DNA of 64,000 bases. Source: Byssothecium circinans. Its lineage: Eukaryota > Ascomycota > Dothideomycetes > Pleosporales > Massarinaceae. This document shows, piece after piece, positions 58,398 through 64,000 of this stretch. How positions within the stretch are numbered: position 1 is the stretch's first letter; every line of letters begins with the position of its first letter. The notes under the pieces were generated by a model, which was not told the DNA's origin, did not search any database, and saw nothing but the letters and a program-made list of their open reading frames with translations. The position numbers and the translations under genes were made by a program. The stretch is taken from positions 583,666-647,665 of the forward strand of contig ML976983.1 in NCBI GenBank assembly GCA_010015675.1, written 5' to 3'.

Positions 58398-60134
58398 ATG
58401 GCCTCCGTCCCAAGAGATAGATGGTGGAAAATCAAATGGTTCTCTGACGAAGACACCAAAGAAGAGCGCCGCCTGATAACGAAGCTCGACATGTTTCTCG
58501 TTCCGTACTCGGTGCTGGGGTACTGGGTCAAGTACATTGACCAGTCGAATCTGAACAACGCGTACGTGGCGGGTATGAAGGAAGACCTTGGGTTTTACGG
58601 GAATGAATTGGTGCAGCTACAGACGCTGTTTACACTGGGTAGTGTATTAGGGCAGATACCATTTCTGTAAGCCTGGGATCCTCTCTCCATGTTTTCTATG
58701 AGACAGATACTCTGTACTGACTAATGAGATAGCTTCATCATGACATATATCCCCATTCAGTACCTGATACCCGTCTGCGATATCATGTGGGGCATCTTCA
58801 CACTCCTACAATACCGCGTCCACTCGTATGCCGAGCTCGCAGCGTACCGGTTCCTGATTGGTTGGTTCGAAGCGGCCTTCTTCCCGGCGATGCATTATGT
58901 GTTTGGGAGCTGGTATAAAGGGCATGAGATTGCGAGGCGGGGTGGGATATTTTATACTGGACTGGGTGCCGGGACCCTGACGGCTGGGTTGATCCAGGCT
59001 GGGGCTTCGCATCGTTTGGAGGGCGTGCATGGTAGGTTGTCTGGGATTCGGTTGGGAAGAGTGATGTGCTGACGGAGTGATGTCTGTAGGTTTAGAGGGA
59101 TGGCGTTGGATGTATATTATCTGCGCTGTGATAACCATTCCCGTGGGTATACTTGGCTACTTCATCCTCCCGGGCACAGTCGATCGTAAGTAACATCGGG
59201 CGCAGATGAGGTAACCACCCTACTAACTTTAATACCCTGTTTTCTAGAACCCAACCGCTACATCATCAACGACCACGACATCTCCGTAGCCCGCACCCGC
59301 CTCGAAAAACACGGCCACGTCCTCCACGGCAAGATGAAATTCCGCCACATTTTCAAAACGCTCCTAGGCTTCCGCTTCTGGCTCATCACCGCCACAGACG
59401 CGCTCTTCTGGAACGCCGGAATCCACAAAAACACCGCCAGCTTCCTCCTCTGGATCAAAAGCATCGCCCCGGGTCGCTTCAGCGTCGCTAAGATCAACGA
59501 GCTAGGCACCATAGCCCCCGGCCTCGGCATCGCATACACTATCATCGCATGCTTTGCGTCCGACCTCCTCATAGGCCCTGCGTGGGCGATAACGCTGTGC
59601 TCTCTTTTCAACGCCGTGGGGCTTGCTATTCTTACCGCGTGGACGGTGCCGGAAGCGGCGCTGTGGTTTGCGTTTGCGACGATGTACTGGAGCAATGCGT
59701 TGTCTAGTGTGTTTCATGGTTGGGTGAATAATTTGCTGAGGGATAGTCCCGAGGAGAGGAGCTTTACGCTTGTGCTGATTAATTTACTCTCGCAGTCTTC
59801 GACGGCTTGGACGCCGCTGCTTGCGTTTCCGACGGTCGAGGCGCCGCGGTTTCGGAAGGGGTACTCGTTTTGTTTGGGGTGTGCGGTTGCGTTGATTATT
59901 TGTACGTGGGTTATGTGGGGGTGGTTGAGGAGGGATGAGAGGTTGGCGGGACGGACGGGAGGTGTTGACGAGGAGGGGAGTGGAGGGGATACAAATAGCA
60001 GCGACGGTGGGAGTGAGGAAAAGAGGTATGAGGAGAAGCAGATCACGGGAGTTAAGACGGTGGAGAAAAAGAGTAGTTCTAGAGTTGGTGAGGAAGAAAT
60101 CGTTGGAGAGGATGATGCGATTGTACGACGTTGA
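58398..60134 (+). CDS. MFS transporter, anion:cation symporter (Liz1/Fen2/Seo1-like) family
   Basis: Four exons: 58398-58666, 58733-59031, 59090-59185 and 59248-60134 (GT..AG introns of 66, 58 and 62 bp), 516 aa. The start ATG lies in GCAGCATGG context. Early motifs are LITKLDMFLVPYSVLGYWVK and YIDQSNLNNAYVAGMKEDLG, typical of ACS-family permeases (pantothenate Liz1/Fen2, allantoate Dal5, Seo1). YRFLIGWFEAAFFPAMHYVF and GWRWMYIICAVITIPVGIL follow, then six more helices up to CLGCAVALIICTWVMWGW. The C-terminal 60 residues are charged and cytosolic. It probably imports a small carboxylate or vitamin across the plasma membrane by proton symport; pantothenate is the closest guess but not proven. 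Confidence 0.88.
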
Positions 60135-62481: not shown

Positions 62482-63318
62482 CTAAAATTGAATAAGCTGG
62501 TTACCATGAACGTGTGATGTGCCGCCCTGGTGCATGATTTTGCTGTTGTAGTTGTTCCAGGTGTTCGTCGCCCCTACCTAGCGGCCATCAGGTTTAGAAT
62601 GATAACGTTATCAAGGCACACTTACATCAGATTTCTTCAAAACTTCCAATATGACAGCATGGAGATCTTGGTCTTGGGACGCAGCAATACCATCAAGGAT
62701 GTTGGTAAGGATTTCATTGGTCCCAATTTCCGAAACCTCCTCCTTGCAGAGGTCTTGTTGTGCTTGCCGTACCGCTGGGAAGGTTTTGATAAGGTCGTCA
62801 ACCAGCTCGATTATGTCCGCAATTAACCGTTCGAAGTATTTCTTTTTATACAGTGCCCATTTCACCTTCTGTTGCAAGGGAGTGTTATTCTTTCTTTCGA
62901 TGGACAACTCGCGCATTTTCTCATGTAGAGTCCGATGGTCAGAATCGACGTCCGCTTGTGTATCAACAACAAGCAGGCTAGAGTCACCGGCAGCTGCCTG
63001 GCTCTTGAATTTTCCAGACTCCCTTTCAGCATCTTTAAACAACTCTAACACCTGTCCTAGCAATTCCTCCGCCTTTGGTATATCCTCCGTGGACAATATT
63101 GTCGATCTTAGGGATTGGGCATTCGCGACCTGGCCACTAAGCCCGGCGGCCTTGCCCCATCTCGAAAGCCGGAGCCCTGCGTTGTCGAGCTTGAGCAAAT
63201 CGGTCTGAAAGTCTTTGCCGATATTACGGGCGAGTTGAACGAATTCAAAGCAGTCCACGGCATTGTTGAAGAGGCCAGCAAGGGCGACGAGGCCGACAGC
63301 GAGACCGCCGGCTTCCAT
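62482..63318 (-). CDS. HeLo-domain cell-death executor with C-terminal amyloid motif (HET-S/HELLP-like)
   Basis: Exon 1 is 63318-62626 (231 aa) and exon 2 is 62577-62482, with a 48-bp intron (GTAAGT..CTAG, phase 0), total 262 aa. The N-terminus MEAGGLAVGLVALAGLFNNA and CFEFVQLARNIGKDF, LDNAGLRLSRWGKAAG are the HeLo (prion-inhibition) domain signature: a hydrophobic first helix that inserts in membranes, then a helical bundle to about residue 225. Exon 2 gives TNTWNNYN then SKIMHQGGTSHVHGNQLIQ (residues 243-261), a RHIM/PP-like amyloid motif matching the N-terminus of the neighbouring NLR. An alternative third exon (intron 62504-62454, end 62434) would truncate the motif after HVHG. In family members the amyloid motif keeps the protein silent until templated, after which the HeLo domain permeabilises the plasma membrane. 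Confidence 0.85.
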
Positions 63319-63563
63319 GGTCGCGGCTAGCGTATATAAGTAAAGATGAGAATAGACGTATGGTTTGGATGAATGGACTACATTATGGGAAGTCGATGCC
63401 TGGACCTAGATTTCTTCTACACACTGCAGCCGCATAACACGTGCATTTCAGCTGCGGGGTCGTCGACGCTGTCCTTCAGCTGCCTTCGCGGATACGGAGT
63501 GCTGTGCCTCCACTTGGGCCCCGTACTTTGCTTCGCCCACGGCCGCTCCTCTGAGCGGCGAGC
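63319..63563. promoter_or_regulatory. Divergent promoter of the HeLo/NLR pair
   Basis: 245 bp separate the two start codons, so both genes share this upstream region and are likely co-regulated. No specific site is claimed. Confidence 0.6.
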
Positions 63564-64000
63564 ATGAGCTCTTTCGCGTTCACCAACGACGGAGGCCGGG
63601 TCGCCATCCAAGCCGGCCAATACATCGTGCACGGAGACAGCGTCGTGCAGTAGGTTCAGTCGCAGCTCGAAGAATAACATGCGAAACAGTCGCTGACGGC
63701 ACAGACATGCTCCAAATCACCCCGCCAAGCTGCCCTGCGCTGAGGACGCCCCCTTCAACTCCTTCGCGAAACAGCACGAGCGGACCTGCCTTAGGGGCAC
63801 GCGCGTCGACCTCCTTAACGAGATACATGGCTGGGCGGATGGGCTAGACAAGCGGTGCATCTTCTGGCTGAGTGGCCTGGCGGGCACGGGAAAGTCGACG
63901 ATCGCGCGGACCGTCGCGCGCCGGTACTGCGACAGGGGGCGTCTGGCGGCCAGCTTCTTCTTCTCGCGTGGCGGCGGCGACGTTAGTCACGCAGGCAAGT
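63564..64000 (+). CDS. STAND/NACHT NLR with N-terminal amyloid motif (partial, runs off window)
   Basis: Exon 1 is 63564-63649 and exon 2 starts at 63705 after a 55-bp intron (GTAGGT..GCACAG, GCTGAC branch, phase 2). Exon 1 encodes MSSFAFTNDG then GRVAIQAGQYIVHGDSVVQ (residues 11-29), with the RHIM-like core IQAG. Exon 2 begins HAPNHPAKLPCAEDAPFNSF and TCLRGTRVDLLNEIHGWAD, the usual linker before a NACHT domain, then IFWLSGLAGTGKSTIARTVA with the Walker A at residues 86-94 and ASFFFSRGGGDV. The remainder of NACHT and the ligand-sensing repeats lie outside the window. The protein would sense a cue, oligomerise and use its motif to template the HeLo protein encoded next door. Splicing across exon 1 removes an in-frame TAG at 63651, supporting the intron. 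Confidence 0.85.

Follow-up and report, generated by a model that had tools for sequence, protein, structure and literature searches.

Do the two divergent genes at the edge of this DNA form a two-gene signalling unit for regulated cell death, and does the short motif that they share belong to a known amyloid class? The window, i.e., the whole 64-kb stretch analyzed here, comes from Byssothecium circinans (Dothideomycetes, Pleosporales, Massarinaceae), and all coordinates below are positions within it. The original prediction was that the pair consists of a HeLo executor and an NLR that carry a single RHIM/PP-like amyloid motif, possibly of a new class.

A divergent HeLo/NLR gene pair with one motif in each protein

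The pair has the following features:

63318-62626 and 62577-62482 (stop included), minus strand: HeLo-domain gene, 262 aa, two exons, ATG at 63318, spliced model
62578..62625, minus strand: HeLo intron, 48 nt, GT..AG, separating the HeLo domain exon from the motif exon
62488..62559, minus strand: HeLo C-terminal motif WNNYNSKIMHQGGTSHVHGNQLIQ, one copy; the gene ends three codons further, stop included
63319..63563, strandless: intergenic region, 245 bp, common to both divergent start codons
63564..64000, plus strand: NLR gene, NACHT-WD40, continuing beyond the window end
63564-63649, plus strand: NLR exon 1, ATG at 63564, encoding the motif
63579..63649, plus strand: NLR N-terminal motif FTNDGGRVAIQAGQYIVHGDSVVQ, its last codon completed by base 63705, past the intron
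63650..63704, plus strand: NLR intron, 55 nt, GT..AG, separating the motif exon from the NACHT exon; the spliced protein is P0121

The predicted arrangement of divergent HeLo and NLR genes, each with one homologous motif, was confirmed, with 245 bp between the genes and both models equal to database proteins. Specifically, the spliced HeLo model is P0001 (Byssothecium circinans CC80DRAFT_438777, 262 aa; 100% identity and coverage), and the NLR, once completed with flanking DNA (L007), encodes 1220 aa identical to P0121. The ends of six near relatives of the HeLo protein (P0002-P0007) match the unspliced reading at the position of the HeLo intron. A scan of the 245-bp intergenic region for bacterial-type promoters gave no match, a result that is uninformative for a fungus. 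Upstream of the pair, a multi-exon gene (58398-60134, plus strand), when read by eye, resembles membrane transporters of the major facilitator type.

The HeLo protein matches PF14479 over residues 5-201 with 172.9 bits, compared with a curated cut-off of 23.2, and its sequence matches the solved HET-s/HET-S HeLo domains 2wvn (E 2.3e-31), 2wvo, and 2wvq. The same three entries are the only fold matches at E<=0.001 for the predicted model (mean pLDDT 67, pTM 0.68), with an E value of 4.5e-10 for 2wvn and TM scores by query of 0.66-0.70 for the three. The HeLo assignment is therefore secure by family, sequence, and predicted fold. By analogy with HET-S, the protein would insert into membranes and kill cells. 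Its tail (residues 233-262), which carries the motif, has pLDDT below 50, as a tail that is unstructured before templating would show. On the NLR side, there are 11 WD40 stretches, and the precomputed domain list gives the NACHT models PF05729 and PF24883.

The two motifs match over 24 residues

The HeLo and NLR motifs align without gaps and are identical at 7 of 24 residues. The two 19-residue segments with six identities in the original prediction are as quoted there, and the present alignment extends them by five residues and one identity. The ungapped BLOSUM62 score of the window pair is 38; shuffled sequences average -21 (sd 11.1), and none of 20,000 shuffles scored as high.

To score each side against its counterpart, we used position matrices that leave out the window protein. 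The window NLR exon scores 13.8 bits with a matrix of 11 HeLo motifs, from which P0001 and the closely related P0008 were excluded; the highest score among 57,240 null 24-mers from NLR bodies is 4.8. Reciprocally, a matrix of eight NLR motifs without P0121 scores the window HeLo motif at 24.8 bits, and the highest of 21,195 null 24-mers reaches 3.9. Evidence against the match comes from a HMMER profile built from 16 HeLo motifs (with a typing error in one row), which scores the NLR exon at only 4.6 bits and aligns part of the motif. In addition, over 120 NLR N-termini, the PP-type P0176 and P0182 reach 13.3 bits with the HeLo matrix in another register, so that this matrix does not by itself distinguish the window NLR from all other motifs; the distinction comes from the NLR-side profile together with the genomic pairing.

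Profile comparison gave a similar picture. With 9 NLR rows and 13 HeLo rows (22 motifs in total), hhalign aligns the two profiles, window pair included, at 96.3% over 24/24 columns, next to 97.8% for the control of PP effectors against PP NLRs. The ungapped profile score is 32.5 at register 0, and the other sixteen registers lie between -27 and -10, except for +7 (5.5). Under column shuffling, the score has a z of 6.9, is not reached in 20,000 shuffles, and is unchanged without the window pair. For eight cognate pairs, including an Exserohilum pair taken from two records, the scores sum to 309, compared with a re-dealt mean of 269.5, and a fraction of 0.022 of all permutations is as high, which is modest evidence that the partner sequences co-vary.

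Across both sides, the conserved skeleton is N3, [IV]8, Q11, and G19, with N3 and G19 invariant in 22/22 motifs, and can be written as [FWYI]xN-x4-[IV]-x2-Q-x5-[IVA]-x-G-x3-[hydrophobic]. The shared VHG core of the original prediction is not conserved as such: V17 and H18 are variable. Positions 1, 8, 12, 15, 17, and 23 are hydrophobic in most rows of both sides, with glycines in between, an arrangement that would suit a beta-arch.

The motif recurs on both partners in other genomes

At E<=0.001, the HeLo protein has 263 relatives, of which the best 120 were examined. By regular expression, 20 of these carry the motif, 42 carry PP, and 58 carry neither. In many of the 58, the gene call stops at the intron, and one of them, P0040, is an additional motif carrier by eye. 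Among the best 120 of the 1542 NLR matches at E<=1, 16 carry the motif: the window NLR P0121, Pyrenochaeta P0122, B. circinans P0126, Phaeosphaeriaceae sp. SRC1lsM3a P0127, Corynespora P0129, seven from Alternaria, Exserohilum P0131, Paraphaeosphaeria P0137, and, outside the Dothideomycetes, the Onygenales Blastomyces silverae P0202 and Emmonsia crescens P0203.

Pairing was judged from equal contig size in the HeLo and NLR records, which shows a shared contig and not adjacency. A motif HeLo and a motif NLR share a contig in seven cases (contig size in brackets): the window (1443157), Pyrenochaeta (234417), a second B. circinans locus (2118044), Phaeosphaeriaceae (679919), Corynespora (642394), Paraphaeosphaeria (3244807), and Alternaria dauci (7052283). 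The two genes are adjacent in the window (245 bp) and in Alternaria dauci (consecutive locus tags ACET3X_001910 and _001911), and the other five cases are on the same contig only. Loss of the motif from either gene in sister species had been named as grounds for giving up the prediction; instead, the motif is kept in both genes in five other species or isolates and at the second B. circinans locus.

The pairing is not universal. While 7 of the 15 NCBI-named motif HeLo proteins have a motif NLR on the same contig, the remaining eight (P0031, P0040, P0054, P0055, P0057, P0081, P0085, and P0113) have none among the best 120 of the 1542 NLR matches, which counts against the module. The Onygenales P0202 and P0203, which have the motif and no HeLo partner among the matches listed, also count against it. 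For Exserohilum and Alternaria, motif NLRs are present in other records, and six metagenomic motif carriers are on contigs too short to judge pairing.

In a six-frame scan of loci from the B. circinans genome, nothing but the window pair rose above background. The second motif set of this species, known from the protein records P0020 and P0126 on one contig, was not found in the genome copy searched. The same genome holds another divergent HeLo/NLR pair (L002/L051; C21:670170-672279), in whose flanks a common motif was not seen by eye in six-frame reading.

The motif resembles PP and RHIM in its core

The strongest competing explanation places the motif in the PP/RHIM family, as a divergent form with the same central GxQxG core and respaced flanks. 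GxQxG itself is found in 3/9 NLR and 2/13 HeLo motifs, and the looser [GA]xQx[GA] in 9/9 and 5/13, respectively; the window pair reads AIQAG and MHQGG. Moreover, hhalign sets the PP core precisely on NLR columns 9-13, a five-residue stretch (AIQAG/GLQLG), and PP is frequent on the HeLo relatives that lack the motif (42 of the best 120). Nevertheless, the similarity does not go beyond this core: hhalign of the motif profiles against PP gives 0.2-1.2%, compared with 97.8% for the PP-PP control, and the ungapped comparisons have z scores of 0.7, 1.7, 1.0, and 2.7 (control 9.6), with best registers offset by 4 or 5, away from the central Q. The strict G[IV]Q[IV]G occurs in 0/22 motifs.

Searches against domain models point the same way. 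In a Pfam search at E<=10, no model matched two sets of motif peptides (19 in A1 and 10 in A2, with the window NLR motif in both). PF17046 (Ses_B, the PP motif) matched 0/19 and 0/10 of them, compared with 6/6 PP peptides as positive control, and the sigma motif PF17106 likewise matched 0/19 and 0/10, in a search whose positive control consisted of PP peptides only. Profiles of the A1 and A2 motifs found no match among PDB chains at E<=10. PP membership is thus rejected by the profile and Pfam tests, with the PP positive control passing, and we consider a diverged PP/RHIM origin unlikely. Of the original label "RHIM/PP-like", the resemblance of the core around the central Q stands and the wider affinity does not; given the negative Pfam, hhalign, and PDB comparisons, the label describes core resemblance and not membership.

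The PNT1/HELLP/SBP system (PF17046) also has a single motif copy per effector and a central Q, and its motif occurs on close relatives of the window HeLo protein, with GxQxG in some of the motifs studied here. However, it differs in flanks and spacing, its motif models do not match the window motif, and HELLP is HeLo-like. The mammalian RHIM of RIPK1/RIPK3 likewise has a Q in its core, and [IV]QxG is found in 6/9 NLR motifs, although the strict core is absent from all 22.

Relation to the HET-s motif and other published motifs

A second alternative is a single-copy, diverged relative of the HET-s motif (HRAM). According to the accessible text of PMC4518210, HRAM has N3, G19, hydrophobic residues at positions 5, 8, 10, 16, and 18, and K/R at position 15. 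In this numbering, N3, hydrophobic 8, and G19 are each kept in 22/22 motifs, in favor of such a relationship. The other positions are poorly kept: hydrophobic 5 in 0/22, 10 in 8/9 NLR and 0/13 HeLo motifs, 16 in 8/22, 18 in 6/22, and K/R 15 in 1/22. In addition, the HeLo C-terminus has one motif copy rather than the HET-s-type double repeat (PF11558 criterion), there is no Pfam match, and five FGN-type motifs, termed HRAM3-like after the accessible text of PMC9815663 and the sole HRAM-like set compared, give z scores of -0.9 and 0.7 against the motif profiles. The HRAM/HET-s motif proper is rejected by repeat number and core positions, and a diverged, single-copy form of it is improbable.

As a system, NWD2/HET-S of Podospora anserina (HRAM1) is nonetheless alike in its adjacent HeLo and NACHT-WD40 NLR genes and in the position of its motif, C-terminal in the HeLo protein and N-terminal in the NLR; the two HeLo proteins have family PF14479 and the 2wvn fold in common. 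This layout, which the original prediction had invoked, is borne out by the gene models and by the hhalign result above. In contrast, HET-S has two repeats and NWD2 one, whereas the window proteins have one copy each, and the motif sequence and core positions differ.

Three further motifs are of interest. NLR39 is described in the accessible part of PMC9815663 as a 24-residue NLR N-terminal motif of Ascomycota, with 20 NLRs, 0 neighbours, and 2 effectors. It agrees with the window motif in length, in occurrence in Ascomycota, and in the described G-hydrophobic-Q-hydrophobic-G core, so that, judged by this description, the window NLR motif could be identical to NLR39; the latter was published there without a neighbouring effector partner, whereas the window NLR has one. 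The GDQN motif of Fusarium oxysporum (NxxxGxQYxxxGxGDQNxVSxxxxQxN), which the accessible text of PMC12261475 reports with a SesA effector and one newly found NLR/effector pair, has a similar QYxxxG stretch and, by eye, differs in spacing and in its effector. PUASM (FxGxGxQxxGxGxF in the accessible text of PMC9815663) was set apart by eye only.

A proposed amyloid-signalling module

We consider it probable that the HeLo and NLR genes form a module of two genes that signals regulated cell death through amyloid, with a motif that is a class of its own in Pleosporales pairs. In the model systems NWD2/HET-S and PNT1/HELLP, as outlined in the accessible parts of PMC5485727 and PMC7885112, NLR oligomerisation leads through amyloid nucleation and effector templating to membrane attack. 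By the same logic, the WD40 repeats of the window NLR would sense a ligand and its NACHT domain would oligomerise, as expected from their families. Oligomerisation would crowd the N-terminal 24-residue motifs, which could then adopt a beta-arch amyloid fold. This fold may in turn template the homologous motif in the unstructured HeLo C-terminal tail, the two being paired by sequence. Finally, as in HET-S, the templated tail would free the HeLo N-terminal helix to damage the membrane of the cell itself. Amyloid formation and cell death by the window motifs, and with them the original view of the pair as a complete programmed-cell-death unit, are thus put forward by analogy.

The motif might alternatively be a non-amyloid short interaction motif, such as a docking beta-strand, that brings the HeLo protein to the NLR. 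Short homotypic motifs may have other modes of docking, and its amyloid nature is here a prediction; yet a homotypic motif, a disordered tail, a HeLo executor, and an N-terminal position in the NLR are together the hallmark of characterised fungal amyloid pairs in the accessible text of PMC5485727, and we regard simple docking as slightly less probable still than a diverged HRAM. Chance resemblance of two unrelated tails, to which the mere 7/24 identities of the window pair might point, is dismissed by the shuffles, the matrix scores against null 24-mers, and hhalign, and is refuted by the recurrence of the pair in other species.

Possible motif exchange between executors and possible novelty of the class

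We built a tree of 45 HeLo domains, 21 with the motif and 24 with PP-type tails. The tree needs two label changes: 20 of the 21 motif carriers cluster, with the weak PP-type P0099 at the base, and the Coniosporium protein P0040 (core GQQLG) is placed inside the PP-bearing group. As P0040 is a single case and a partial record, an exchange of the motif tail between executor lineages is a suggestion. In the window genes, the motif is on its own exon, which, together with the position of P0040, would make an executor re-wirable by tail exchange.

Several amyloid motifs serve fungal receptors and executors and apparently keep the pathways separate. The kind of system described here, NLR/HeLo amyloid signalling, is already known, and its motif has no match to any model compared. 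Published fungal classes considered in the comparison are HRAM1-5, PP, sigma, PUASM, and GDQN. Against the models that were run (Pfam including PF17046, PP hhalign, and PDB), the suspected new motif class is supported. No publication on the motif was found by taxon or species, judging by titles and abstracts and mostly outside subscription papers, figures, and supplements. The fuller proposal is tentative, and we put it at slightly under an even chance: an independent motif class, distinct from PP, sigma, HRAM, PUASM, and GDQN, that is centered on Pleosporales and reaches Onygenales receptors, and that would allow one lineage of executors to switch from PP receptors to the receptors of this class by tail exchange. 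With both of its partners known from several genomes, and with PP on sister executors, such a class would offer a natural setting for testing how motif specificity originates; the same test bears on exon-wise motif exchange and on the minimal core of a signalling amyloid.

A decayed NLR beside a putative enzyme

Elsewhere in the B. circinans genome (L031 on C18), the reverse strand holds a decayed, stop-containing NLR paralogue that shares 71% identity with the window NLR in the NACHT region. The neighbouring ORF, which by eye resembles a purine nucleoside phosphorylase, ends in ITFGNSQDSIQAGNIHGNIQFG, and an N-terminal motif resembling it is found in the Bipolaris NLRs P0123 and P0125, among others. 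The ORF, as a putative enzyme, and the decayed NLR are probably an enzyme-type amyloid pair.
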